Assembly (NCBI GenBank): GCA_012270545.1
Contig: JAAXID010000250.1
Coordinates: 1 to 33,818, forward strand
Length of the DNA stretch: 33,818 nt
Source: Anaerolineae bacterium
GTDB lineage: Bacteria > Chloroflexota > Anaerolineae > Aggregatilineales > Phototrophicaceae
Direction of reading: 5' to 3'
Shown: piece by piece, positions 10,228-29,917 of the stretch
How positions within the stretch are numbered: the stretch's first letter is position 1
How the letters are laid out: every line of letters begins with the position of its first letter
Translations under genes and position numbers: made by a program
The notes under the pieces: model-generated
Database searches by the model: none
What the model was told of the DNA's origin: nothing
The model's input: only the letters and a program-made list of their open reading frames with translations

Positions 10228-11133
10228 ATGCTTGCGGAAAAATATCGGGTCGCGCCAAAGGGCTTCACCATCGAGCAATGGGAGACATTTCTGCGCGATG
10301 GCATCATCATTATGGAAAACGCGCTCTCGCAAGATGAAGTCGATGAGTATTTGGCGGCGATTGATCGCCTCACATCCGCCGACGACAATTATAAAGAAGG
10401 CGACCGCTTTTATCGCGAGAATTTCGTCGAGCTGGACCCAACGCTGTCGGCGCTGATCGATCATCCTCGGCATGTGGGTTACGCCTACGATATCTACGGC
10501 GAACTGCTCAAACTGCACCAGACACAATTATTTCTGCGCGAGCCATTTCAAACCCAGCGCAACCAATGGCATCCGGATGGCGCGCGCGTTGTGCCCTACG
10601 GCGTATTCTCGCCCGTACTGCCATTGCAGATCAAAGTCGCCTACTGGCTGACCGATTTGCCAACAGCGGATATGGGCAATTTAGTCGTCCTGCCGGGCAG
10701 CCACCGCACACAATATCAGGAAGCCTACGACACTTACGATACGCTTCCGGGCGAGTTAATCCTGCAAGTACCGGCCGGCACAATGACGGTGATGCACAGC
10801 AGCATCTGGCATAAAGTCGAGCCGAACCTCAGCAACGTCACACGCAAGAACTTCTTCATCGCTTATTGTCCCGCCTGGGTCACGGCAGCCGACCGCATCC
10901 AGTCCGACCCCGAATGGCTGAAGACGCTGAATCGCGAACAGCGCATCATCATGCGCAGCTACGAAAACGGCTACGATTACGCCAAGCCGCCGCGGGAAGA
11001 TTTCCCCCTGTTTCTGGATCGGGAAACGGGGCTGGACCACGACCCCGACATCTATCACGAGCGTGTGGTCATGGAGCGGCGCAAGCGAATGACGTTTCCT
11101 GAGAAACTAAACCGCGTACCCGAAGGGGCGTGA
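10228..11133 (+). CDS. Phytanoyl-CoA dioxygenase (PhyH) family Fe(II)/2-oxoglutarate oxygenase
   Basis: A 301-aa soluble double-stranded beta-helix oxygenase. The Fe(II) triad is visible as His115-x-Asp117 (in NQWHPDGAR) and a distal His195 (in SSIWHKVEPN), with Arg206 in NVTRKNF as the likely 2-oxoglutarate anchor. The family hydroxylates diverse small molecules and many members are not acyl-CoA enzymes; the substrate here cannot be named. AGGAG lies about 8 nt before the ATG. A TATACT box at 10177-10182 could be the -10 of its own promoter, though the -35 is poor. It lies just before the sulfatase/fucosidase region and may belong to it. Confidence 0.88.
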   Translation: MLAEKYRVAPKGFTIEQWETFLRDGIIIMENALSQDEVDEYLAAIDRLTSADDNYKEGDRFYRENFVELDPTLSALIDHPRHVGYAYDIYGELLKLHQTQLFLREPFQTQRNQWHPDGARVVPYGVFSPVLPLQIKVAYWLTDLPTADMGNLVVLPGSHRTQYQEAYDTYDTLPGELILQVPAGTMTVMHSSIWHKVEPNLSNVTRKNFFIAYCPAWVTAADRIQSDPEWLKTLNREQRIIMRSYENGYDYAKPPREDFPLFLDRETGLDHDPDIYHERVVMERRKRMTFPEKLNRVPEGA

Positions 11134-17447: not shown

Positions 17448-18335
17448 TTATCGCTTCACGCCGGAGGTGGCGATGCCTTCGACGAAGTAGCGCTGGCCGA
17501 AGACGAAGATGAGCAGAACAGGGATGACTGCGATTGTCGCCACTGCCATCATCAGGTGCCATTCAGTGTTGCCGTAGGCGCCCTGATATTGGACCAGGCA
17601 AACCGGCAGCGTCTGCACATCGGGCGTACGCAGATAAAGCAGCGGACCGAAGAAGTTATTCCAGTTGCCGATGAAGGCGAAGATCGCCAGCGTCGCCAGC
17701 GCCGGTTTGGACAGCGGGATGAAGATCTGCAGCAAGATGCGCGCGTGGCCCGCGCCGTCGATCTTGGCGGCATCAACCAATTCTTCCGGAATCGTCAGAA
17801 AGAATTGCCGCAGCAAGAAGATGAAGAAGGGCCAGCCAAACCAGGGCGGCACCATCAGCGGCAGGTGCGTATCCAACCAGCCAAAGCGGTTGAACAGCAC
17901 GTACTGCGGCACCACGAGCGCTTCGTTGGGCAGGAGCATGGTCGCCAGGACGATGGCGAAAAAGAAATTCTTGCCACGTGCCTTCAGACGCGCGAAGGCA
18001 TAAGCGGCCAAGGTGCAGGAGACGAGATTGCCGATGATGTTGTTGATGGTGATCTTCAGCGAATTCCAGGTGCAGGTGGTGAAATTGACGTAACCGTAAC
18101 CGTACCAGCCATCGGCGAAGTTCTCCCATTGGACCGTCTCAGGGATCAGCCGCGGCGGAAAGGCGAAGACTTGGTTCAGCGGTTTCAGCGCGGTCGACAC
18201 CATGACGATGAATGGCAAGACAAAGGCGACCCCGAGCGGGACAAGCAAGACGAAGGTAACCATAATGCCGATGGCGCGGCGTCCCTTGATCGACTTGCGC
18301 CAGGTGACGCTTTCTACCCGTTTTCTCGGCGTCAT
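17448..18335 (-). CDS. ABC sugar transporter permease, MalG/UgpE-type
   Basis: A 295-aa inner-membrane permease with about six transmembrane helices. The cytoplasmic EAA loop, which docks the ATPase, reads EELVDAAKIDGAGHARILLQ. The C-terminal end with VFGQRYFVEGI is typical of the CUT1 family of sugar importers. Its ATG overlaps the stop of the partner permease (ATGA at 18332-18335), so the two are translationally coupled. The substrate is not readable, but binding protein, two permeases and fucosidases nearby suggest fucose-containing oligosaccharides. No ATPase gene follows; a shared MsmX/UgpC-like ATPase elsewhere is likely. Confidence 0.95.
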   Translation of the reverse strand: MTPRKRVESVTWRKSIKGRRAIGIMVTFVLLVPLGVAFVLPFIVMVSTALKPLNQVFAFPPRLIPETVQWENFADGWYGYGYVNFTTCTWNSLKITINNIIGNLVSCTLAAYAFARLKARGKNFFFAIVLATMLLPNEALVVPQYVLFNRFGWLDTHLPLMVPPWFGWPFFIFLLRQFFLTIPEELVDAAKIDGAGHARILLQIFIPLSKPALATLAIFAFIGNWNNFFGPLLYLRTPDVQTLPVCLVQYQGAYGNTEWHLMMAVATIAVIPVLLIFVFGQRYFVEGIATSGVKR

Positions 18336-19246
18336 CCCGTATCAGCCTCGTAGTAGACCCAGCGCCTGCCCACGCGGAATTGGATGCCCGTAAGCACCAT
18401 GAGGATGACAAACATAATCCAGGCGACAGCGGCGGCAACGCCCAATTGCAGGAAAATGAAGGCGTTCTCCCATAAGTACCAAATCAAGACATTGCTGGAC
18501 TCGCCCGGTCCACCCTCCGTCATCACGCGGATCTCAGTGAAATTCTGGAAGGAACTCACGACAGAAATAATGATCACGAAGAAAAGTACCGGCGAAAGCA
18601 TGGGCAAGGTGACGTTGCGGAACTTCGCCCAATGGCCTGCGCCGTCGATCTCAGCTGATTCGTAAAGCTCTTTGGGCACGCCCTGCAAGCCGGCCAGCAG
18701 GATGATCATGATAGGACCTACCGAAAACATGCTCATCAAGATTAGCGACGGCTTGACCCAGGTCTTGCTGAATATCCAGGGCGGACCTTGAATGCCAATC
18801 TGCTTCAAAGTGTGGTTCAGGATGCCAAGGCGCGGATTAAAGATCCAGATCCAAACCAGCGCCACGGCCACGCCCGCCGTCACCGTCGGCAGATAATAGA
18901 CAGCGCGAAAGAAGGCGATGCCCGGCACCTTTTGATTAAGCAGGATGGCCAGCAATAAGGCGAATGACACGCCGAAAACCACCCGGCCGACGACAATATA
19001 GAGCGTATTGCCGACCGATGTCCAAAATATCGGGTCCGCGAAAAGATTCGAGTAATTTTCCAAGCCCACGAATTGGAGATCATCCAGCGAGATGCGCCAA
19101 TCGGTGAAGCTCAAACCCAGCATGCCGAAGACGGGCCCGACGCTGAAGACGACCAAGCCAATCAGCCAAGGGAAAATGAACAAATAGAAAATCCGCTCTT
19201 CGCGCTTGGCGCTGGGTGAGATAGGCCGCGCTATTCGTCTAAGCAT
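18332..19246 (-). CDS. ABC sugar transporter permease, MalF/UgpA-type
   Basis: A 304-aa partner permease of the CUT1 importer with about six transmembrane helices, beginning in a basic N terminus (MLRRIARP) and the helix FYLFIFPWLIGLVVF. The EAA loop reads KELYESAEIDGAGHWAKFRNV. The start at 19246 gives normal family length; the in-frame ATG at 19345 would overlap the end of the binding-protein gene and run through the intergenic hairpin. It is second in the operon binding protein, permease, permease. Confidence 0.93.
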   Translation of the reverse strand: MLRRIARPISPSAKREERIFYLFIFPWLIGLVVFSVGPVFGMLGLSFTDWRISLDDLQFVGLENYSNLFADPIFWTSVGNTLYIVVGRVVFGVSFALLLAILLNQKVPGIAFFRAVYYLPTVTAGVAVALVWIWIFNPRLGILNHTLKQIGIQGPPWIFSKTWVKPSLILMSMFSVGPIMIILLAGLQGVPKELYESAEIDGAGHWAKFRNVTLPMLSPVLFFVIIISVVSSFQNFTEIRVMTEGGPGESSNVLIWYLWENAFIFLQLGVAAAVAWIMFVILMVLTGIQFRVGRRWVYYEADTG

Positions 19247-19281
19247 TGATCTTGCACTCGCCTTAGAGCCAACAGAATCCA

Positions 19282-19304
19282 GGGAGACCGCTGAGCGATC
19301 TCCC
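19282..19304 (-). promoter_or_regulatory. Intergenic hairpin between binding-protein and permease genes
   Basis: GGGAGA and TCTCCC arms enclose CGCT and AGCG, with one mismatched pair between the two stem segments. The stem lies between the stop at 19332 and the start at 19246. Such structures after binding-protein genes commonly protect the upstream mRNA or partly terminate transcription, giving more binding protein than permease. No T-run follows. Confidence 0.6.
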
Positions 19305-19331
19305 TCAATTGTTACAGTCTGCGAAATTGGA

Positions 19332-20645
19332 CTACATATCGGCAACTGCGTCGAGCGCAGCGTTGCCCTCTTCCGTGATGGTGGCGATGGCTTCGTCCAC
19401 AGTGGTTTCGCCCAGACGCAGCAGATCGGCCTCGCGACTCAGAATCTGGCTGACTTGAGCGGCCGCCAGCGACTGGAAGGGAGGACCTGTCACCGCGTAA
19501 TCAAACATGGCTTCCAGGAAGTAATGGCCACTGGGCGGCGCCGGGTCGGATGTCAACCAGGCTTCCAGGCCCTCCGGACGCGCCGGTGAACCGCGGCCCG
19601 AGAGGCTCCACATGAAGATCATGCCCTCAAGTGAGAGGTATTCACGCAGGTAGCGCCAAGCCACATCCGGCTTATCGCTGGTGGGCGTGATGCCATAACC
19701 GCTGCCGAAAGCGCCCGTATAGCGCGAACCGTCAGCGCCCATTGGCGTCGGCGCGACATCCCATTCGAAATTCGCCAAAGCGCGCATGCTGGGCGTGCTC
19801 CAGGTCGCGATATGGCCCATAGCGGCGACACCGGCCCGGAAGGGCTGCGAGTTGGGGAAGGCCTCCATCTCAGTGCCGCTCGCGCCGGCATGTTCGACAT
19901 GCGTCAGGTTATACCAGTGGTTGAGCGCCGCGCGGATTTCGGGCGTATCAACCGTCATCGCGCTTTCGTCTTCGTTCATCGTAGTGCCGCCCCAAGCGCC
20001 GGTGAAGAAACCGCCACCGCCGTTGCCCAGATCAAGTCGGCCATCCCAGCCCCAGATGCCGGCATCGGTATCGGTCAGCTCGATGGCGGCGGCCGCCATG
20101 TCTTCCATCGTCCAGTCTTCGCCCGGATAGTCCATGCCCGCGGCATCGAACAAATCCTTGTTGTAACCAAGGATGATCGGACCGTGGTCGTATGGGAGCG
20201 CATGGATGCGGCCGTCAACGCGGTAAAGGCGTACCGACTCTTCCCACATGCCGTCGACGTTGAATTCTTCATCAGCGGTAACGATGTCGTGGATGTCGAT
20301 GATGATGCCCTCATGCGCCCATGGGGTGGCGCGGCTGCCATGTACGTAGATGATATCGGGCAAGGTGCCGGCGGCGGCCCAGGCGGGAACCACGTTGTTG
20401 TGGTCGGCCCAGGTATTGTAGGTGATGTTGATCTTGATGTCCGGATGCCGCTCCATGAAGCCTTCATCGTATTCGGCCTGGCGCGGACGGAATGCCGCTT
20501 CCCAGTGACGGCCGAAAGTCAGCTCGACCTGATCCTGCGCGGCGGCGATGCCGCTCAGGGGTCCCAGTCCCGCGAGCGCGGCGCCGGTGCTGGTAGCGGC
20601 CGTCAATTTAAGGAAATCGCGGCGTGAAAGTTTTTCAGTGCTCAT
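19332..20645 (-). CDS. Extracellular solute-binding protein, family 1, Tat-exported
   Basis: A 437-aa sugar-binding protein of the CUT1 importer. The N terminus has a twin-arginine signal (SRRDFLK at 7-13), a hydrophobic Ala-rich segment and a cleavage region near AAAQDQ. The mature part has the usual cluster A/B fold, with WADHNNVVPAWAAAGTLPDI and aromatic residues that often stack on sugar rings. Export in folded form through Tat is a feature of many Chloroflexota binding proteins. AAAGGAA lies just upstream of the ATG, and the two strong tandem promoters further up should give high expression. The ligand is inferred from neighbours as a fucose-containing oligosaccharide. Confidence 0.94.
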   Translation of the reverse strand: MSTEKLSRRDFLKLTAATSTGAALAGLGPLSGIAAAQDQVELTFGRHWEAAFRPRQAEYDEGFMERHPDIKINITYNTWADHNNVVPAWAAAGTLPDIIYVHGSRATPWAHEGIIIDIHDIVTADEEFNVDGMWEESVRLYRVDGRIHALPYDHGPIILGYNKDLFDAAGMDYPGEDWTMEDMAAAAIELTDTDAGIWGWDGRLDLGNGGGGFFTGAWGGTTMNEDESAMTVDTPEIRAALNHWYNLTHVEHAGASGTEMEAFPNSQPFRAGVAAMGHIATWSTPSMRALANFEWDVAPTPMGADGSRYTGAFGSGYGITPTSDKPDVAWRYLREYLSLEGMIFMWSLSGRGSPARPEGLEAWLTSDPAPPSGHYFLEAMFDYAVTGPPFQSLAAAQVSQILSREADLLRLGETTVDEAIATITEEGNAALDAVADM

Positions 20646-21011: not shown

Positions 21012-22619
21012 ATGCCAGTGCCCAAAGTCATCCACCAGCCGCGGACGCAGCAGGCGCTCAAGCGCGGGATTTCGACTTTGGTTAATGCCATTGCGCCGAC
21101 CTTGGGACCGACGCCGCGCCCTTCCATCGCGCGCAACCAAGGCAAGTTCGAACTGCTGGACGATGGCGGCCTGATCGCCCGACGCATCATTGCCCTGCCC
21201 GAACAAGAAGACGATGTCGGGGCGATGCTGCTGCGGCAGGTGCTCTGGGCTGTGCATCAGCATGTCGGCGATGGCGCCGCCACGACCGCGGTGCTCTACG
21301 AAAAGATCTATAGCGAGGGACTGCGCTATATTGCCGCCGGCGCCGACCCGATGCGGCTGCGCGTGCGTCTCATGGAATTGTTGCCGATAGTCAGCCAACG
21401 CTTGCTGGCCGCTGCGCGCCCACTGCGCGGCGAAGCGGAACTGAAAGCGCTGGCCTTCTCCGTCTGCTATGACGAGGAGATGGCGGAGGTCTTGGGCGAA
21501 GTTATCGACACAATCGGGCAATACGGTCAAGTGGATGTCCGCGCTGGGCACGGTCGCGGCCTGGAATACACCTACGTTGAAGGCAGTTATTGGCGCGGCG
21601 GCGCCCAATCAAAAGAGATGCTGCGCGGCTTCCAGCGGGGAGTCGCTGAGCTGCAAGACGCCGCGATCCTAGTCACCGACATGGAAATCGAAGAACCGCG
21701 CGAGCTGGTGCCGCTGATGAGCTTGGCGCTGCGCCGTGGCATCGCGAACCTGCTGCTCGTCGTCGCTTCAATCTCAGAAACGGGCTTGTCGGTCGTGCTG
21801 GACAAGCGCTTGCGAGACAAAATACAGACCATTGTCGTCAAGATAGATGCTTACCATCCGGGCGACCTGAGTATCGCGCAGGCGGATATTGCGCTCTTGA
21901 CCGGCGCGCGACCGCTGCTGCAAAAGGCGGGCGAATCACTGGAGCAGGTTCGCGAGAGCGACTTCGGCGAGGCGCGTTGGGTCTGGGCTGATGACAAGAA
22001 TTTTGGCTTCGCCAGCGGCAAAGGCGATCCACGACAATTGCGCGAGGGCGTGCGAAGCCTGCGGAAGGCCTACGCCAGCGCCGAAGATGACGACGATCGC
22101 CGGCGCACCCTTGAGCGGCTGGGACGCTTGAACGGCGGACTGGCGACAGTCTATGTGGGCGGCATCGCCGAGGATGAAATCCGGCAGCGCAAGGAAACGG
22201 CGGAACGCACGATTCGGGCGTTGCGGCGCGCGGCCGACCTTGGTGTGATACCCGGCGGCGGGGTTGCCCTGCTTCGCGGCCGTGATTGGCTGCTGGCGGA
22301 AGCCGAAGCGGAGACAGATATGGAGAGCCGCGCCGCCCGTCTGATCATGGCGAAGGCGGCCGAAGCGCCGATTCGTCAACTGCTTGAGAACGCCGGATAC
22401 GACCCAAGCGAAGTGCTGGCGCAGTTGGGGAACTGCGGGGCAGCAGCCGGCTTTGATGTCATGCGCGACGAGATCATCGATGTGGCGACGGCCGGCATCC
22501 TCGATGTGGCGCAGGTGCAGGTCGAGGTGCTGCAGCGCGCTGTTTCGAGCGCGGCGCTGGCTTTGACGATCGATGTGCTCGTGCTGCATCGCGAGCCAGA
22601 GACGATGACGGATCCATAA
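21012..22619 (+). CDS. Divergent Cpn60/GroEL-like chaperonin with altered ATP site
   Basis: A 535-aa protein that aligns end to end with GroEL by eye: LVNAIAPTLGP near the start, Asp51 at the position of GroEL Asp52, GDGAATTAVL (86-95) with Asp87, AAGADPMRL, an apical-like middle part, YVGGIAEDE, and VIPGGGVALLR (412-422). Several key positions differ. The LGPKGRN phosphate loop has become LGPTPRP. The catalytic Asp398 of GroEL falls at Arg399 in an ungapped alignment of that block. The Gly-Met-rich C-terminal tail is absent. It probably still forms the fold but may bind ATP poorly or not hydrolyse it. The start at 21012 gives normal family length. The propeller gene follows after 1 nt. Confidence 0.85.
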   Translation: MPVPKVIHQPRTQQALKRGISTLVNAIAPTLGPTPRPSIARNQGKFELLDDGGLIARRIIALPEQEDDVGAMLLRQVLWAVHQHVGDGAATTAVLYEKIYSEGLRYIAAGADPMRLRVRLMELLPIVSQRLLAAARPLRGEAELKALAFSVCYDEEMAEVLGEVIDTIGQYGQVDVRAGHGRGLEYTYVEGSYWRGGAQSKEMLRGFQRGVAELQDAAILVTDMEIEEPRELVPLMSLALRRGIANLLLVVASISETGLSVVLDKRLRDKIQTIVVKIDAYHPGDLSIAQADIALLTGARPLLQKAGESLEQVRESDFGEARWVWADDKNFGFASGKGDPRQLREGVRSLRKAYASAEDDDDRRRTLERLGRLNGGLATVYVGGIAEDEIRQRKETAERTIRALRRAADLGVIPGGGVALLRGRDWLLAEAEAETDMESRAARLIMAKAAEAPIRQLLENAGYDPSEVLAQLGNCGAAAGFDVMRDEIIDVATAGILDVAQVQVEVLQRAVSSAALALTIDVLVLHREPETMTDP

Positions 22620-22620
22620 A

Positions 22621-23481
22621 ATGACGTCAATCGACACGATTGAAAGAACGAACAGTCTGCTGACGGTGGGCGGCGCGGTCTACGCCGCCAGGCAATCGGG
22701 ACTGTATCGGATCGACGCCAGCGGTGATGAGCAGAACCTGTATCAGTCCTGGCTGCCCGATCAAGCGCTGCCAACGCTGGCGATTGCGGCAGTGGACGAT
22801 CTGCTGCTGGCCGGCATCAATGGCGGAGTTGCCCGTTCCGAAGACGGTGGCGCTAGCTGGAGCGCGCAACAGTTTCGCGCGCCGGCGCCGCTTGTGACCT
22901 GCCTGGCAGTTTCGCCCGCATTCGCTGATGACGGCTGCGTTTTGGCGGGCAGTTTCGAAGACGGCGTCTTCCGCTCGACCGATGGCGGGGAGACTTGGCG
23001 CGCGGTCAATCACGGCTTGTTCGATCACAGCATTTATGCCCTGGCGCTGTCGCCGGAATTCACCACTGACGGCATCGCGTATGTCGGCACGGGCAGCGGC
23101 ATCTATCGAAGCGAAAATGGCGGTCGTCTTTGGTGGGATGTAACGATGCCATCTGGTGATGAGACGGTGCTGAGCCTGGCGTTATCGGAGAACGGCGCGT
23201 TTTATGTCGGCTGTGAGGCGCACGGCCTACTGCGCTCAAACGACGCTGGCAGAAGTTGGGAGACGCCGCTAGAGACGAAAGGCGCGGTTAACGCAGTCGC
23301 TCTCACACGCGGCGGCGTGATCTTCGCGCAGGTGGACGATGGCGTATTGCAATCGCAAGATGACGGGGCAAGTTGGAGCGAAGTTGTCGCGGCGAACGTG
23401 GACTGCTTGGCGCTTGGCACGGACGGTGAGACGCTGTTTCTGGCGATGGCTGGCGGCAGCATTCGACGATCGAGCTTGTAG
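22621..23481 (+). CDS. Asp-box (BNR/YCF48-like) beta-propeller protein
   Basis: A 286-aa protein with no signal peptide, built of repeats that carry the Asp-box S-x-D-x-G-x-x-W: RSEDGGASW, RSTDGGETW, RSNDAGRSW and QSQDDGASW are clear, and RSENGGRLW is a variant. This is the pattern of sialidase-like and Ycf48/Vps10 propellers, which usually serve as protein or glycan binding platforms rather than enzymes. Catalytic sialidase residues are not seen. The ATG starts 1 nt after the stop of the chaperonin-like gene, so the two should be translated together and may work together. A role as substrate adaptor is conceivable but is inference. Confidence 0.85.
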   Translation: MTSIDTIERTNSLLTVGGAVYAARQSGLYRIDASGDEQNLYQSWLPDQALPTLAIAAVDDLLLAGINGGVARSEDGGASWSAQQFRAPAPLVTCLAVSPAFADDGCVLAGSFEDGVFRSTDGGETWRAVNHGLFDHSIYALALSPEFTTDGIAYVGTGSGIYRSENGGRLWWDVTMPSGDETVLSLALSENGAFYVGCEAHGLLRSNDAGRSWETPLETKGAVNAVALTRGGVIFAQVDDGVLQSQDDGASWSEVVAANVDCLALGTDGETLFLAMAGGSIRRSSL

Positions 23482-23521: not shown

Positions 23522-24913
23522 ATGAATTATGAACCCACACTAGAATCGGTAAGGCGGCATCAAGTACCTGATTGGTTTCACAATGCCAAGCTGGGCATCT
23601 TCATCCATTGGGGGCTCTACTCGGTGCCGGCCTGGGCGCCCCATGGCGGTGATATCGGCGAAGTCTTCCAGAGCGGCGACTTGAGCGCCTGGTTCCGCAA
23701 CAATTCCTATGCTGAATGGTATTTGAACACGCTCAAGTTCGAAGATAGCCCCACGCGCGAGTATCACAACAAGAATTACGGCGCCGACTTCAGTTATGAT
23801 GACTTCGCCGCCGGCTTCAACTCGGCGCTGAAAAGATGGAAGCCGACCGAGATGGCGGCGCTCTTCAGCGAGGTCAACGCGCGTTACGTCGTCCTGACCA
23901 CCAAACACCACGATGGCTTCACATTATGGAACAGCGAAATACCCTGCCCGCATAAAGCGGATTATCACACGCAGCGCGATGTGGTTGGCGAGCTGACCGA
24001 CGCCGTCCGCGATCAGGGCATGCGCATGGCGCTCTATTATTCAGGCGGGCTGGACTGGGCTTTTAACGAGCAGCGCATCGACGATGTCGCCGATGTCTGG
24101 GGCACGATCGTTCAGACGCCTGAATTCGTCGCGTACTCGGTCGCGCATTGGAAGGAGTTGATCGACCGCTACCAGCCGTCAATTATGTGGAACGATATCG
24201 GTTATCCGGCGGCGGCCGACCTGGGCGAGCTCTTCGCCTACTATTACAACAACGTGCCCGACGGCGTGATCAACGACCGCTTCACCCAATCGCGCGATCA
24301 GAGGCCAAAGGCGGGCGAAAAGCTGACTGTGCCGCGCGGTCCGCATTTTGACTACATCACACCGGAGTACGCCACATTTGACGAGATTCAGGAAGTGAAA
24401 TGGGAGTGCTGCCGCGGCATCGGGCACAGCTTCGGTTACAACCGGGTCGAGGGCGATGAGCAGCTGCTGGCCGAAGATGAGCTGATCCACATGTTCGTCG
24501 ATATCGTCAGCAAGAATGGCAATCTGCTGCTGAATGTCGGTCCGCTGGCGGATGGCAGCATTCCGGAAAACCAAGCGGAGCGCCTGCGGGCTTTGGGTCG
24601 CTGGCTGGACCGTAATGGAGAAGCGATATTCGATACGCGTCCCTGGCGACGCGCCGACGGGGTGACAACGGCTGGATTGGATCTGCGCTTCACAGCGGGG
24701 GACGACGCCCTCTACGTCACGCTGCTGGGTACGCCGACGGAGAGCGAAATCACGATTGAAGGGCTGGAAGCGCCCGCCGGAGCGAGCGTTCAATTGCTGG
24801 GACGCGCTGAAGACCTGGAGTGGCGTCAAGACGGCTCGGACTTGCTGATTCGCTTGCCCGAATTGCCCGAGGCGCCAGCGCATTCGATCCGCATTCAGGG
24901 CATAGGTAGCTGA
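23522..24913 (+). CDS. GH29 alpha-L-fucosidase (second copy)
   Basis: A 463-aa GH29 enzyme that releases L-fucose from non-reducing ends. Signatures: LGIFIHWGLYSVP (24-36), TTKHHDGFTLW (126-136), and the nucleophile Asp225 in MWNDIGYP, the classic form of the family motif. A C-terminal beta-sandwich domain is present (about 375-463). No signal peptide is visible, so it should be cytoplasmic. An AGAGG-type ribosome site precedes the ATG. The MFS gene downstream begins 1 nt after its stop, which ties hydrolysis to transport. Of the three copies it looks closest to canonical plant/bacterial GH29. Confidence 0.95.
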   Translation: MNYEPTLESVRRHQVPDWFHNAKLGIFIHWGLYSVPAWAPHGGDIGEVFQSGDLSAWFRNNSYAEWYLNTLKFEDSPTREYHNKNYGADFSYDDFAAGFNSALKRWKPTEMAALFSEVNARYVVLTTKHHDGFTLWNSEIPCPHKADYHTQRDVVGELTDAVRDQGMRMALYYSGGLDWAFNEQRIDDVADVWGTIVQTPEFVAYSVAHWKELIDRYQPSIMWNDIGYPAAADLGELFAYYYNNVPDGVINDRFTQSRDQRPKAGEKLTVPRGPHFDYITPEYATFDEIQEVKWECCRGIGHSFGYNRVEGDEQLLAEDELIHMFVDIVSKNGNLLLNVGPLADGSIPENQAERLRALGRWLDRNGEAIFDTRPWRRADGVTTAGLDLRFTAGDDALYVTLLGTPTESEITIEGLEAPAGASVQLLGRAEDLEWRQDGSDLLIRLPELPEAPAHSIRIQGIGS

Positions 24914-24914
24914 C

Positions 24915-26198
24915 TTGGCACAAAAAGTCGATTCAACCGTCGAAAGAAATCTGCCCTGGAATTTCTCGGTCAATCTGATCGATATCACCTTCATCACATT
25001 GGCTTTCAGCATCATCTCGCGTGAAACCATCACACCGCTGTTGATCAGCAATCTGACGGATTCGAAGATCGCGATCGGCCTGGTGCCAGCGATATACAGC
25101 ATCGCCTATTATCTGCCACAGCTATTCGCCGCCAATCATGCCGAACGCTTAAAACGCAAGCTGCCCTTCGTCATGTTGATCGGCGGCCTGCTGGAGCGCG
25201 TGCCTTATCTCTTCGCCGGCTTGGCGATTTTGCTTTTCGCGGAGAGCGCGCCGACCGCCGCCCTGCTCTGCATTTATCTCGTGATCGGGCTGGGCGCCTT
25301 GGGCAACGGCGTGGCGACGCCGGCCTGGTTCAGCATGATTGGCAAGGTGCTGCCGGTCAATCGGCGCGGGATATTCTTCGGCCTCAGCGAAGGTTTGGGC
25401 ACGCTGATGGGCATCATCGGCGCCTATTTTGTCGGCCGCGTACTCGATGATATTGGATACCCGCTGAACTTCGCGGCGCTGTTCCTCGTTGCCGCCATCT
25501 TCATGGGCATCTCCTGGATCGGCCTGGCGCTGAACCGCGAGCCCGAAAGCCCAATCGTCAAAGCGCATATTCCCTTCAGCCACTACTTTCGGCGCTTGCC
25601 GGCGATATTGCGTGAGGAGCACAATTTTCGGCGATTCCTGCTGGGTTATTCGATCAGCCGCTTGAGCACGATGGGCGTCGGCTTCTTCATCGTTTTTGGC
25701 AATGAACGCTTTCAGTTGAACGGCGCCGATGTCGGCTTGCTGACGGCGATCCTGATCGGCAGTCAAGCGGCGATGCAGCTGCTCTTGGGCTGGTTGGCCG
25801 ATAAACGCGGGCACAAGGCGAATCTGACCGTCTCGGGTTTCGCGCTGGCATTGGCGGCGGTATTGGCGCTGGGCGCAACCGATCTGGTCGGCTTGATTCC
25901 CGCTTTTGTCTTGCTCGGCATAGGTCTGGCCAGCGATCACGTATCACGTCTGAACATCATCCTGGAATTCGCGGCGCCGGAAGATCAACCGACTTTCATC
26001 GGGCTGACCAATACCTTGCTCGCGCCGGTGGTCTTTCTGGCGCCGATCCTCGGCGGCTGGCTGGCCGATTTCGGATTTGAAACGCTCTTTATTTTGATGA
26101 CAGTTTTTGGGCTTGCCGGCGGCATGCTGCTCTCCACTTGGGTGAAGGAACCGCGCTACAACCCGCCCGAGCCAATCAGCGGCAATCTTAAGAACTGA
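24915..26198 (+). CDS. Major facilitator superfamily transporter (first of a tandem pair)
   Basis: A 427-aa inner-membrane protein with about twelve transmembrane helices. The loop between helices 2 and 3 holds NHAERLKRKLPF, a variant of the MFS Asp/Arg motif, and the central part has GWLADKRGHK, the matching motif of the second half. It starts with TTG, 1 nt after the fucosidase stop, so translation is probably coupled. It may import fucose or oligosaccharides or export products; direction and ligand are unknown. The next gene is a clear paralogue. Confidence 0.9.
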   Translation: MAQKVDSTVERNLPWNFSVNLIDITFITLAFSIISRETITPLLISNLTDSKIAIGLVPAIYSIAYYLPQLFAANHAERLKRKLPFVMLIGGLLERVPYLFAGLAILLFAESAPTAALLCIYLVIGLGALGNGVATPAWFSMIGKVLPVNRRGIFFGLSEGLGTLMGIIGAYFVGRVLDDIGYPLNFAALFLVAAIFMGISWIGLALNREPESPIVKAHIPFSHYFRRLPAILREEHNFRRFLLGYSISRLSTMGVGFFIVFGNERFQLNGADVGLLTAILIGSQAAMQLLLGWLADKRGHKANLTVSGFALALAAVLALGATDLVGLIPAFVLLGIGLASDHVSRLNIILEFAAPEDQPTFIGLTNTLLAPVVFLAPILGGWLADFGFETLFILMTVFGLAGGMLLSTWVKEPRYNPPEPISGNLKN

Positions 26199-26223
26199 TT
26201 CACAAGCGCGATCGGATGCTGAT

Positions 26224-27486
26224 TTGAAGCACTCAGCGGAAGGCCTGGTCGAGAAAAACCTCAACTGGAATTTCAGCGTCAATGTGCTTGACAATATGTT
26301 TTATGCGCTGGCGATCAGTCTGGTTTCGCAAGAGACCATCATGCCGCTGCTCGTCAGCGAATTGACCGATTCGACCATCGCTGTCGGCTTGATTCCCGCA
26401 ATCTTCAGCTTGTCGTTTCTGCTGCCGCAGCTCTTCGTCGCCAACCATGCCGAGCGTCTGCCGCGCAAACTGCCCTTCGTCTTGTTGGGGAGCGGGCTGC
26501 TGCAGCGCCTGCCCTATCCCTTGATCGGCGTTGCGCTGCTGCTCTTCGCCGTCGAGGCGCCTGGCTTGGCGCTGCTGCTTTTCTTCATCGGCATCGCCAC
26601 GGCCGCATTCGGCGGCGGCATCGTGACGCCAGCCTGGTTCAGCATGATCGGCAAGGTGGTGCCCACCCGTCGGCGCGGCATCTTCTTCGGGCTGGCCGAT
26701 GGCGGCGGCTTGCTCATGGGGGTGATCGGCGCTTACTTCGTCGGACGCGTACTGGATATCATCGACTATCCCGGCAGTTTCGCCCTGCTCTTCCTGGTCT
26801 GCGGCCTGATCCACGCGATTTCCTGGTTTTCGCTGTCGCTGACGCGCGAGCCGCCGAGCGTTGACATCAAGGAGTCAGTGCCACTGCGGCGCTACTTCAG
26901 TCAGCTGCCGACCGTGCTGCGCGGCCATAAAAATTACCGCCGCTTCCTCGTCGGCTATGCGCTGCTGCGCCTCAGCATGATGGCGGTCAGCTTCTTCATC
27001 GTATTCGGCAATATCAACTACGAGCTGAGCGGCGCTGATATCGGCTTGCTGAATGCCATATTCATCGGCACACAGGCGCTGATGCGGCTGCTGTTTGGCT
27101 GGCTGGGCGATCGTTGGGGGCATAAGCGCAACCTGGTAATATCGGCCGCCTGCATGGCGCTCGCGGCGTCATTCGCGCTGAGTTCATCCGATGTCGCCGG
27201 GTTGGCGCCGGCCTTCATCTGCCTCGCCTGCGCCATTTCGAGCGACGGCGTTTCCCACTTCAACATCGTATTGGAATTTGCCGACCCGGCCGATCAGCCA
27301 ACCTATATCGGGTTGACCAATACCTTGATGGCGCCCTTCACTTTCGTCGGTCCGATCGTCGCTGGCTGGATCGCGGCCGCCTTTGATATCAGTTTATTGT
27401 TCGTCGTCTCGCTGGCCTTTGGCGTCGCCGGCGCGGCGCTGTTATGGTGGTGGGTGCGTGAGCCAAGGCATATCAGCAAGCGATAG
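26224..27486 (+). CDS. Major facilitator superfamily transporter (second of a tandem pair)
   Basis: A 420-aa, twelve-helix MFS protein, a tandem duplicate of its neighbour: both begin with a VE-x-NL-x-WNFSVN block, share NHAERL-x-RKLPFV, and share VTPAWFSMIGKV with a nearby RRRGIFFGL. The second half has GWLGDRWGHK. The start is TTG, 25 nt after the first copy ends; like its partner it lacks an ATG near the N terminus. Divergence between the copies is moderate, so they may have different ligands (for example fucose and a fucosyl oligosaccharide). Confidence 0.9.
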   Translation: MKHSAEGLVEKNLNWNFSVNVLDNMFYALAISLVSQETIMPLLVSELTDSTIAVGLIPAIFSLSFLLPQLFVANHAERLPRKLPFVLLGSGLLQRLPYPLIGVALLLFAVEAPGLALLLFFIGIATAAFGGGIVTPAWFSMIGKVVPTRRRGIFFGLADGGGLLMGVIGAYFVGRVLDIIDYPGSFALLFLVCGLIHAISWFSLSLTREPPSVDIKESVPLRRYFSQLPTVLRGHKNYRRFLVGYALLRLSMMAVSFFIVFGNINYELSGADIGLLNAIFIGTQALMRLLFGWLGDRWGHKRNLVISAACMALAASFALSSSDVAGLAPAFICLACAISSDGVSHFNIVLEFADPADQPTYIGLTNTLMAPFTFVGPIVAGWIAAAFDISLLFVVSLAFGVAGAALLWWWVREPRHISKR

Positions 27487-27512: not shown

Positions 27513-28967
27513 ATGAGCGCGACCTATCAAGCAACCTGGGAATCGTTGACGCGACACGAGGCGCCCGCGTGGTTTAACGAGGGCAAATTCGGCTTGTACG
27601 CCCACTGGGGCCTCTACAGTGTGCCCGGCTTCGGCAACGAGTGGTACGGCAAATGGATGAACGATCCCGCGCATGAGATTCACCAGCGGCATGTGGAGCG
27701 CTTCGGCTCGCCGGCGGATTATGGCTATACGAAATTCATTGATGGCTTCACAGCCGAGCATTTCGATCCCGACGACTGGGCGGAGCTCTTCGCCGCCAGT
27801 GGCGCGCGTTACGCTGGATTTTCGCTGGCGCATCACGATGGCTTCGGCTTGTGGGATAGCGATGTCTACCGTTGGAATGTCGGCAAGATGGGACCAAAGC
27901 GCGATCTCTACGGCGAGTTGGCGGAGGCGCTGCGGGCGCGCGGTTTGCGCTTGGTGGCGCCATTCCACATCATCCGCGGCTTCAACTGGTTCCTGGCCGG
28001 CTGGAATCAATGGGATCAAACTTTTGACGCCGCCGTCGTCGAGCGCGGGCTGGCGGAAGGCTGGGAGCTCTTCGACCCCGAGTATGCCGATTTCTATTGG
28101 GTGCAGCAGACGAGCAAGTTCGAAGACTTTTTTCAGCAATGGCAGCTGAAAGTGCGCGAGGTGATCGACAAGTATCAGCCCGATATGATGTGGTTCGATG
28201 GCGGCAAGTTCCGCGATGACGGATACGAGGAGACGGCGCTGGAGATCCTCGCCCATTACTTGAATCAAGCGGGCGCCTGGGGAAAAGAGGTGCTGGTGCT
28301 GAACAAGCTGCCGGTCAGCATGCAATACAACTTCCATCCCGATTTCGGCATCATCAACTTCGAAAAGGGACGCGACCGCCCGCTGCACTACGAGCGCCCC
28401 TGGAATGATGATATGCGTATCGGCGATCAATCCTGGGGCTGGGTGGAGAATCAGCTATACGCCAGCGGACATACTTTACTGAGCAAGTTGATCGATTGCG
28501 TGGCGCGCGGCGGGAGCATGATGCTGTCGCTGTCTCCGAAGCCGGATGGCAGGATCCCCGAAGGTCAACGCGATTCGCTGCTGGAAATGGGCGCCTGGCT
28601 GACTTGGAATGGCGAGGCGATCTATGGAACGGTGCCCTGGACAACTCACTCCGAGGGCGACCTGGAAAAGCTCTGGCATCACGAGCGCGGGCACAAGTTC
28701 TGGGTTTATGAAAATTGCAATGCCGATGACAGGCGCTATACGCAGTCGACGGACGGCAAAACGGTCTATGCGCTGACGTTGGGCATTCCGCAGAAGTCGG
28801 TTACCTTTGAGGCGCTGGACGGTTCGGTCGGGATCGAGTATGTGTCGCTAGTCGAATCCGATCAGCCGGTATCCTGGTCGCAATCGGAGGCTGGTTTAAC
28901 CATCGACGCGGCTAAACTGAACTTCAAGACGAAGCTGGCAGCGGCTTGGAAAGTGGAACTGCAATGA
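27513..28967 (+). CDS. GH29 alpha-L-fucosidase (third copy)
   Basis: A 484-aa GH29-type enzyme, the most divergent of the three copies. It has FGLYAHWGLYSVP (26-38), SLAHHDGFGLW (104-114) with AHHDG in place of the usual KHHDG, and the nucleophile Asp229 in MMWFDGGKF. The Lys to Ala change in the fucose-binding block suggests a different sugar or a substituted (for example sulfated) fucose. No signal peptide is visible. GGAGA lies 7 nt before the ATG, 26 nt after the second MFS gene. Its stop overlaps the start of the kinase gene (ATGA), which ties the two products together. Confidence 0.9.
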   Translation: MSATYQATWESLTRHEAPAWFNEGKFGLYAHWGLYSVPGFGNEWYGKWMNDPAHEIHQRHVERFGSPADYGYTKFIDGFTAEHFDPDDWAELFAASGARYAGFSLAHHDGFGLWDSDVYRWNVGKMGPKRDLYGELAEALRARGLRLVAPFHIIRGFNWFLAGWNQWDQTFDAAVVERGLAEGWELFDPEYADFYWVQQTSKFEDFFQQWQLKVREVIDKYQPDMMWFDGGKFRDDGYEETALEILAHYLNQAGAWGKEVLVLNKLPVSMQYNFHPDFGIINFEKGRDRPLHYERPWNDDMRIGDQSWGWVENQLYASGHTLLSKLIDCVARGGSMMLSLSPKPDGRIPEGQRDSLLEMGAWLTWNGEAIYGTVPWTTHSEGDLEKLWHHERGHKFWVYENCNADDRRYTQSTDGKTVYALTLGIPQKSVTFEALDGSVGIEYVSLVESDQPVSWSQSEAGLTIDAAKLNFKTKLAAAWKVELQ

Positions 28968-29917
28968 TCGCTGGAGCCGCTCATCTTCCGCCGCGCGGGG
29001 CAATTCACGCCGTGCTAGAGGAACTTTACCGGGATCAGTCCGTTAACTACGACGGTTTCCGCGTTCGTTTACTGCGCGGCAGCTACTCCAACTTCACGCA
29101 TCTGATCACCGTTGAGTTCGAGGATGAGTCGACTCGCAAGATCGTCATGCGCCGTTACAATCCCGAAAAATACGAAGAGGGGCATGACAAGCATAGCTGC
29201 GAGTTCAACGCGCTCAAGCTGCTGCATAAGCAGGGCATCCCGGTGCCGCCGCCACTTCTGCTGGATGAGACGGGCGAGATGCTGGGTCTGCCCGGCATCG
29301 TGACCGAGTTCGTCGAGGGCGCGCCGATAGAGCTGCCGGCCGAGGCCGCGCGCTGGGGCGAGCTGGCGGCGGCGACGGCGCGGATGCTGGCGCGGATTCA
29401 TCAAACAGCATTCAGCGAAGCCGACAAGCGTTTCTTGATGGATGATAACGTTGAGGTCGCCTGGTTCATCAAAACTGGCCTCATTCCCGATTACATGCGC
29501 GCCGACCAGGATGGCGAGATGGTATGGCAGCTGGTAAAGGACCACTGGGGACGCTGGGCGCCGGTCGAGCCACGCTTCGCGCATACGGACTATTGGGCGG
29601 GCAATATCTTGTGGCGGGGCGATGAGATTACCGCAGTCGTCGATTGGGAGGAAGCTGGCTACGGCCATCCGGCCGCGGACGTCGCCTACTGCCGCATGGG
29701 GTATTACATCGAGGGCCTGCCGGAAGCGGCTGAGACATTCCTGCGCGTCTACGAGACGGAAGCGGGCTGGACCTTATCAGACCTGCCACTATTCGAGTTG
29801 GCCGCCAGCGCCCGCCCCATGACGGATCCTCAAGACTGGTTCGCGCGCGCTTACATGGAAGCTGGCTTCCGCCGCTTCATCGCTGAAGCCAAGGGAAAAC
29901 TGCTCGCGGCGCGCTAA
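28964..29917 (+). CDS. APH/choline-kinase-fold phosphotransferase
   Basis: A 317-aa kinase of the aminoglycoside phosphotransferase-like fold. The catalytic loop is HTDYWAGN (207-214, base Asp209, Asn214) and the metal-binding Asp227 lies in VVDWEEAGYG. The N lobe carries a VMRRY strand in place of the usual Lys strand, and a hinge VTEFVEG. The start at 28964 overlaps the fucosidase stop by 4 nt; an in-frame TTG at 28946 is less likely. Family members phosphorylate aminoglycosides, choline, homoserine, methylthioribose or sugars. Coupling to a fucosidase suggests a sugar or sugar-acid substrate here, but this is inference. Its stop overlaps the stop of the convergent sulfatase. Confidence 0.85.
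   Translation: MIAGAAHLPPRGAIHAVLEELYRDQSVNYDGFRVRLLRGSYSNFTHLITVEFEDESTRKIVMRRYNPEKYEEGHDKHSCEFNALKLLHKQGIPVPPPLLLDETGEMLGLPGIVTEFVEGAPIELPAEAARWGELAAATARMLARIHQTAFSEADKRFLMDDNVEVAWFIKTGLIPDYMRADQDGEMVWQLVKDHWGRWAPVEPRFAHTDYWAGNILWRGDEITAVVDWEEAGYGHPAADVAYCRMGYYIEGLPEAAETFLRVYETEAGWTLSDLPLFELAASARPMTDPQDWFARAYMEAGFRRFIAEAKGKLLAAR

Follow-up and report, generated by a model that had tools for sequence, protein, structure and literature searches.

A candidate pseudo-chaperonin of Chloroflexota: a GroEL-like protein lacking the catalytic Asp398 and encoded next to a beta-propeller protein

Introduction

Textbooks present GroEL as a folding cage driven by ATP, and a large clade of its relatives that has been kept by selection without the catalytic Asp398, with a Mg-nucleotide pocket in place, raises the question of what use a non-cycling ring might be. 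The question arises from a stretch of 33,818 nucleotides of an Anaerolineae bacterium of the Chloroflexota (contig JAAXID010000250.1), hereafter the window, in which a GroEL-like protein of 535 aa carries Arg399 in the place of Asp398. Our answer, to which we assign a probability of roughly 0.55, is that the protein is a pseudo-chaperonin whose ring binds nucleotide but hardly hydrolyses it, and which acts as a slow or locked partner of its own beta-propeller protein in the service of sugar uptake and use. The database name "chaperonin GroEL", borne by a number of members, hides the loss of Asp398, and among the matches listed from the open-access PMC literature no title on an Asp398-less chaperonin clade was found.

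Results and discussion

The chaperonin gene occupies positions 21012..22619 of the plus strand (535 aa plus stop), in agreement with the preliminary description in coordinates, strand and length, and was identified from profile scores, an alignment with E. coli GroEL and the predicted fold. Counted from the gene start, the Arg399 codon lies at 22206..22208 (plus strand). The next gene, on the same strand and starting 1 nt past the chaperonin stop codon, encodes a BNR/Asp-box protein of 286 aa (22621..23481). Further downstream, also on the plus strand, lie an alpha-L-fucosidase of family GH29 (23522..24913), two tandem MFS transporters (24915..27486), a further GH29 alpha-L-fucosidase (27513..28967) and an APH-type kinase (28946..29917). 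A sugar ABC importer on the minus strand is transcribed divergently from the chaperonin gene and comprises a solute-binding protein with a TAT signal (19332..20645), a permease of the BPD_transp_1 family resembling UgpA/MalF (18332..19345) and a second permease (17448..18335; BPD_transp_1 match at 17475-18008). Between positions 10228 and 33803 the gene set includes three GH29 fucosidases, two sulfatases, the two MFS transporters, the APH-type kinase, an aldo/keto reductase and an Ldh_2 dehydrogenase, which suggests use of a sulfated, fucose-rich glycan; the importer, fucosidases and kinase around the chaperonin gene bear out the earlier reading of a sugar-use locus. This setting is largely conserved in most loci of the genus with enough flanking sequence. 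The MFS tandem, placed between two fucosidases, is itself conserved in most orthologous loci whose flanks are long enough.

The protein passes the Cpn60/TCP-1 profile PF00118 (119.9 bits against a gathering cut-off of 34.3, residues 24-524) and fails every narrower chaperonin model applied. It reaches 282.7 bits against the cut-off of 582.1 of the GroEL equivalog model TIGR02348, 80.8 and 135.4 bits against 600 for the chlamydial GroEL2/GroEL3 models NF038370 and NF038369, 29.4 bits against 671.1 for the group II model thermosome_arch, and at most 37.6 bits with the CCT models. The family search proposed in the preliminary description, read from these profile scores, thus makes the protein a member of the Cpn60 superfamily outside GroEL proper, the chlamydial variants and group II. 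Among solved structures it matches group I chaperonins best, the structural list giving identities of 24-29%; group II chaperonins also align in the VIA-align comparison, at lower Z, and were left out of the membership decision. An AlphaFold2 model built from a 50-row alignment (pLDDT 85.6) contains the three-domain GroEL fold and overlays over its full length on GroES-bound GroEL (4v4o_F; TM 0.89-0.90, rmsd 2.3), so that the full-length chaperonin fold anticipated from the letters is found in the prediction. The overlay on apo GroEL is poor (1oel; TM 0.56-0.57, rmsd 11.8), and the method may be biased towards the GroES-bound shape that the model takes.

With E. coli GroEL as the ruler for residue numbers, 32 window-type proteins were tabulated. 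As the preliminary description had it, the block containing Asp398 and GGGVAL aligns with GroEL without gaps, Arg399 stands for Asp398, Asp51 (GroEL Asp52) and Asp87 are kept, and the Gly-Met tail is missing, the C-terminus reading REPETMTDP. Its remaining claim about the pocket, a changed phosphate loop, is correct in the letters (LGPTPRP for LGPKGRN) and overstated as a change of the loop, because the altered letters follow a conserved TLGP and position 34 is variable among the 32 orthologues (Leu 23, Thr 8, Ser 1). Besides the two aspartates, the window protein retains T30, L31, G32, P33, G414-G416 and Asp495. Throughout the window type Asp398 is replaced by Arg (32/32), with Asp87, Thr30, Gly32, Pro33, Gly414, Gly416 and Asp495 present in all 32 proteins and Asp52 and Gly415 in 31 each. 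The Arg at position 398 is encoded by all four CGN codons, and this, together with its presence in 32/32 proteins and the purifying selection described below, indicates that Arg399 is more than a chance substitution.

Arg predominates beyond the window type as well. In the best 120 of 5702 listed homologues of the window protein (itself included), position 398 is Arg in 117, Ala in two and a gap in one; of the best 120 of 1952 listed homologues of a distant member, 119 have Arg and one has His there, with Asp87 in 120/120 and position 52 occupied by Asn (88) or Asp (32). Over all rows, which are partly non-independent, Asp87 is present in 311 of 312, the remaining one having a gap. The window genome carries five Cpn60 genes, one canonical and four divergent, and all four divergent copies lack Asp398: the window protein and the copy on contig C229 have Arg, that on C4 has Ala and that on C210 has Glu. 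Since Ala, Glu, Ser, Lys, Thr and His all occur at position 398 within the clade, Arg was rejected as an obligatory residue. In no Asp398-less row do residues 52 and 398 bear like charges: the combinations seen at 398 and 52, in that order, are Arg/Asp, Arg/Asn, Arg/Ser, Arg/Ala, His/Asn, Glu/Lys, Ser/Arg, Ser/Ser, Ala/Asn, Ala/Ser and Lys/Asp. The two positions would thus form a structural pair in place of a catalytic one, a reading with few independent lineages behind it, and Arg398 would pair with the acidic residues 51/52. Model confidence across the pocket loop is low (pLDDT ~58-67 for residues 31-70), and the geometry of Arg399 and Asp51 is therefore unreadable from it. For E. coli GroEL, PMC3813556 describes a D398A variant that responds to ATP binding and has an ATPase of ~2% of wild type. 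By analogy, the window protein has plausibly lost the normal ATPase cycle and would hold nucleotide and hardly hydrolyse it.

The changes extend to the surface that meets GroES and substrate. The apical residues involved, which we take to be Tyr199, Tyr203, Phe204, Val263, Val264 and Asn265, correspond to Ala198, Glu202, Met203, Leu263, Asp264 and Lys265 in the window protein, and the GroEL groove residues are not retained. Across the window type Tyr199 becomes Ala or Val, Tyr203 Glu, Asp or Thr, Val264 Asp or Glu, and Asn265 mostly Lys or Asp; among the salt-bridge positions, Arg197 becomes Gly and Arg501 Val, Ile, Ala or Leu. Met at 204 and Phe or Trp at 199 are found in Asp398-bearing relatives too. 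These relatives otherwise mostly retain the groove: in 11 tabulated divergent Asp398-bearing proteins of Chloroflexota, Tyr203 is kept in 10, Val263, Asn265 and Glu386 in 11 each, and Arg501 in nine, so that the loss of Asp398 accompanies the change of the GroES/substrate surface. In the distant-member set (best 120 of 1952) the salt-bridge residues are mostly retained (Arg197 in 104/120, Glu386 in 117/120, Lys or Arg at 501 in 119/120), which argues that the allosteric network has not been lost everywhere; salt-bridge loss is seen in the window type and is not general across the clade. There is no groES gene next to the window chaperonin gene, and the sole Cpn10 (GroES) match of the genome adjoins the canonical groEL on contig C242. 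The window protein would be expected to function without GroES.

The strongest alternative is a working chaperonin with a rebuilt active site, in which another residue replaces Asp398 and which folds proteins, perhaps the propeller only, with or without the single GroES. It fits the retention of the nucleotide-contacting glycines, Asp87, Asp495 and (31/32 of the window type) Asp52, as well as the strong purifying selection, and seven-bladed WD40 propellers are reported as clients of eukaryotic CCT in PMC8544692. However, no conserved compensating carboxylate is found nearby: the adjacent residue in the window type, Glu398, considered as a substitute catalyst, was ruled out because other members carry Lys, Ala, Gln, Arg, Leu or Val there. 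Many members moreover have Asn, Ser, Lys or Arg in place of Asp52, the GroES/substrate groove is altered, and the only GroES gene found sits beside canonical groEL. We consider this alternative unlikely, though more probable than those discussed below, and retain a ring that holds nucleotide and scarcely hydrolyses it as the preferred reading.

The preliminary description overlooked the beta-propeller gene directly downstream, as it did the altered groove, the three Asp398-less paralogues near other sugar importers of the genome and the variation at position 398 in other members. The BNR protein has no signal-like hydrophobic N-terminus, and its model (pLDDT 93.3) is a seven-bladed beta-propeller, each blade having three or four strands in our grouping. 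The model resembles the propellers of Ycf48, WD40 proteins and xyloglucanase, with Foldseek TM scores of 0.71-0.75 (query length) to Ycf48 entries. Like Ycf48/HCF136 and F510_1955 it is a single-domain BNR propeller; it differs from them in falling short of both model cut-offs (F510_1955, 88.3 of 175 bits; Ycf48, 33.3 of 326 bits) and in having no signal-like N-terminus. A propeller is the next gene on the same strand in 34/34 distinct window-type loci. At 21 other Asp398-less loci a propeller neighbour lies on the same strand in 12, is convergent in one and is absent from eight, and among the 30 best-scoring loci of the order, eight of which overlap with the other locus counts, it lies on the same strand in 29 and is convergent in one. 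Three of 13 divergent Asp398-bearing loci have a same-strand propeller neighbour, one of the Asp398-bearing loci (L105/L132) having only 595 bases downstream, as against none of 12 canonical groEL loci, nine of which have only ~1.1-1.5 kb downstream. These counts rest on open frames from six-frame translation and on profiles made from member sequences, which distant propellers could escape.

Within the window genome the propeller has a single strong relative (2e-46), which adjoins the C4 chaperonin; outside these two frames, matches are at 3e-7 or weaker and lie in frames of 446-1141 residues. Chance neighbourhood as the source of the link was checked against the canonical loci (0/12) and against this number of propellers, and was rejected. 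No propeller was found at the four loci examined for the C210- and C229-like paralogues, which recur in the genus (L069, L070, L082 and L084). Together with the eight propeller-free loci among 21, this implies that the partner is not obligatory and that its overall share is below the counts given here. At the loci of Glu398-type paralogues (L070:5161-6096, L082 and L084) the chaperonin is followed by a membrane protein and not by a propeller, the L070 copy being without a Pfam match.

In other families of Chloroflexota, three Asp398-bearing chaperonins are followed by BNR frames of ~670 residues (L123:5089-7110, L125:4509-6539 and L127:2835-4835), twice the size of the window partner. These cases imply that the pairing of propeller and chaperonin may be older than the loss of Asp398. 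At L124:4528-6564, an Asp398-bearing chaperonin is followed by what appear, read by eye, to be a bactofilin and an MreB-like gene. One apparent fusion of both domains (P0139, 867 aa) was set aside as fusion evidence, since it probably arose by a frameshift where the chaperonin gene ends, running across the gene pair: its chaperonin match stops at residue 496, its propeller match starts at residue 578, and the intervening sequence is unrelated.

The propeller counts also bear on the view that the protein is an ATP-independent holdase or moonlighting Cpn60, with neither ring nor partner, and that propeller and importer are mere neighbours in a sugar operon. Cpn60 paralogues diverged in function are described, chlamydial GroEL2/GroEL3 among them (PMC1892554), and the propeller is absent from eight of 21 other Asp398-less loci. 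However, the propeller recurs across differing gene settings and families, which plain operon inheritance explains poorly, and the near-universal Asp87 (311/312 rows) would be needless in a protein that binds no nucleotide. We regard this view as improbable, more so than a rebuilt active site, and favour a nucleotide-holding ring that the propeller would physically bind.

The link to sugar importers is looser. All three other divergent chaperonin genes of the genome (C4, C229 and C210) have importer permeases directly upstream on the same strand, with further neighbours that differ: metallo-beta-lactamase-fold, SDR and GH32 genes at C4, PhyH at C229 and a membrane protein without a Pfam match at C210. 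An importer permease lies within ~1.5 kb upstream in 15 of the 30 order loci. Since at least 151 BPD_transp_1 permease matches were counted in the window genome, such nearness is partly expected and weighs less than the propeller link; a further point against the importer link is the divergent transcription of the importer in the window. Set against these permeases, the same genome has four OB_MalK matches, three of them over the cut-off, and many of its sugar importers may share few ATPases.

The residues at ring contacts are kept: inter-ring Arg452 is present in 32/32 window-type proteins and position 461 is Asp or Glu, and the protein probably assembles into a ring. The same residues, along with the canonical GroEL of the genome, would allow a regulatory subunit that enters mixed rings with GroEL and slows its cycle. 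Against this stand the identity of 30% between the window protein and the canonical GroEL of its genome, the changed salt-bridge partners of the window type and the separate, sugar-linked loci, and we hold mixed rings to be slightly more doubtful even than a free holdase.

Orthologues of the window gene without internal stops are present in 33 of the 34 genus genomes searched, its own included, at 64-85% identity; a genome of 8.5 Mb counted in the same genus (G033) gave no match to the divergent chaperonins. With start codons chosen near residue length 535, the orthologues are 533-536 aa long, and dN/dS against 31 of them is 0.122-0.262, a sign of purifying selection. A decaying pseudogene or an assembly error is effectively excluded by these orthologues, lengths and ratios. 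At a threshold of E 1e-85, matches to a member were obtained in 58 of the 154 genomes of the order; at the 30 best-scoring loci, 12 proteins have Arg as residue 398, 12 have Ala, four Lys, one Thr and one Ser. Of 400 genomes drawn evenly across the phylum, at least eight have an Asp398-less member (G000, which is the window genome, G244, G390, G113, G343, G212, G205 and G125), a lower bound set by scoring up to three candidates per genome and leaving out three (G381, G138 and G130) of 33 genomes. A 60-row tree, which used 13 of the 32 window-type rows, was rooted by the program at the midpoint and has flagged long branches, contains one branch (support 99/95) separating the 40 rows without Asp398 from the 20 with it. 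With canonical GroEL read as the outgroup, and with caution because of the long branches, this would correspond to one loss of Asp398 in the sample. The separate clade with the same Arg that had been envisaged thus emerges as a clade, in which the Arg is shared by most members and replaced by other residues in some.

Proposed function

We propose the following course of events. An older, divergent GroEL-like chaperonin that still had Asp398 would have had a beta-propeller as its neighbour and possibly as its client; the action of CCT on seven-bladed propellers, as described in PMC8544692 and PMC6599039, leads us to suggest such a client. Replacement of Asp398 by Arg would have removed the hydrolysis step while Asp87 and other pocket residues were retained. 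With a natural Arg and a retained Mg ligand, the ring would take up nucleotide and rest in a long-lived state, a proposal that draws on the ATP response of E. coli D398A at ~2% ATPase (PMC3813556). Once hydrolysis and the use of GroES were lost, the propeller client and the ring would have become lasting partners, and the partnership would have outlived the ATPase.

A bolder version holds that a seven-fold ring, locked by the Arg/acid pair, is permanently joined to the seven-bladed propeller, as a client turned subunit or as an axis cap, and acts on sugar importers as a platform for their assembly or as a regulator, in several parallel versions per genome, each with its own importer. We offer it tentatively and think it less probable than the reading given at the outset. 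More generally, the extra GroEL copies with a replaced ATP-splitting residue suggest a folding machine turned into a non-cycling device, for which the co-encoded propeller is a concrete candidate partner and the Asp398-bearing relatives with a propeller provide a before-and-after pair.

Comparison with known systems

The window protein has in common with GroEL the three-domain fold (in the model), Thr30, Gly32 and Pro33, Asp52, Asp87, Gly414-416, Asp495 and Arg452. It differs in having Arg for Asp398, a groove changed at 199, 203, 264 and 265 and no Gly-Met tail, and in its genetic setting, with a sugar importer and a BNR gene as neighbours and the GroES gene elsewhere. The divergent Asp398-bearing GroEL-like proteins (L093-L100 and L102-L106) share with it the short, mostly Pro-ending tail, the LGPxAR loop and Asp or Asn at 51, whereas they have Asp398 and mostly retain Tyr203, Val263, Asn265 and Arg501.

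Pseudo-chaperonins are a known kind of protein in eukaryotes, where MKKS, BBS10 and BBS12 are chaperonin relatives without a normal ATPase cycle. CCT belongs to group II and is a hetero-oligomer that hydrolyses ATP. Among bacteria, chlamydial GroEL2/GroEL3 resemble the window case as duplicated GroELs with changed ATP and GroES regions, according to PMC1892554. Eukaryotic CCT is likewise a chaperonin paired with propellers, acting on beta-propeller clients, WD40 and seven-bladed ones among them, according to PMC8544692 and PMC6599039; from it the window protein is set apart by the loss of the catalytic Asp and by scores of at most 37.6 bits with the CCT models.
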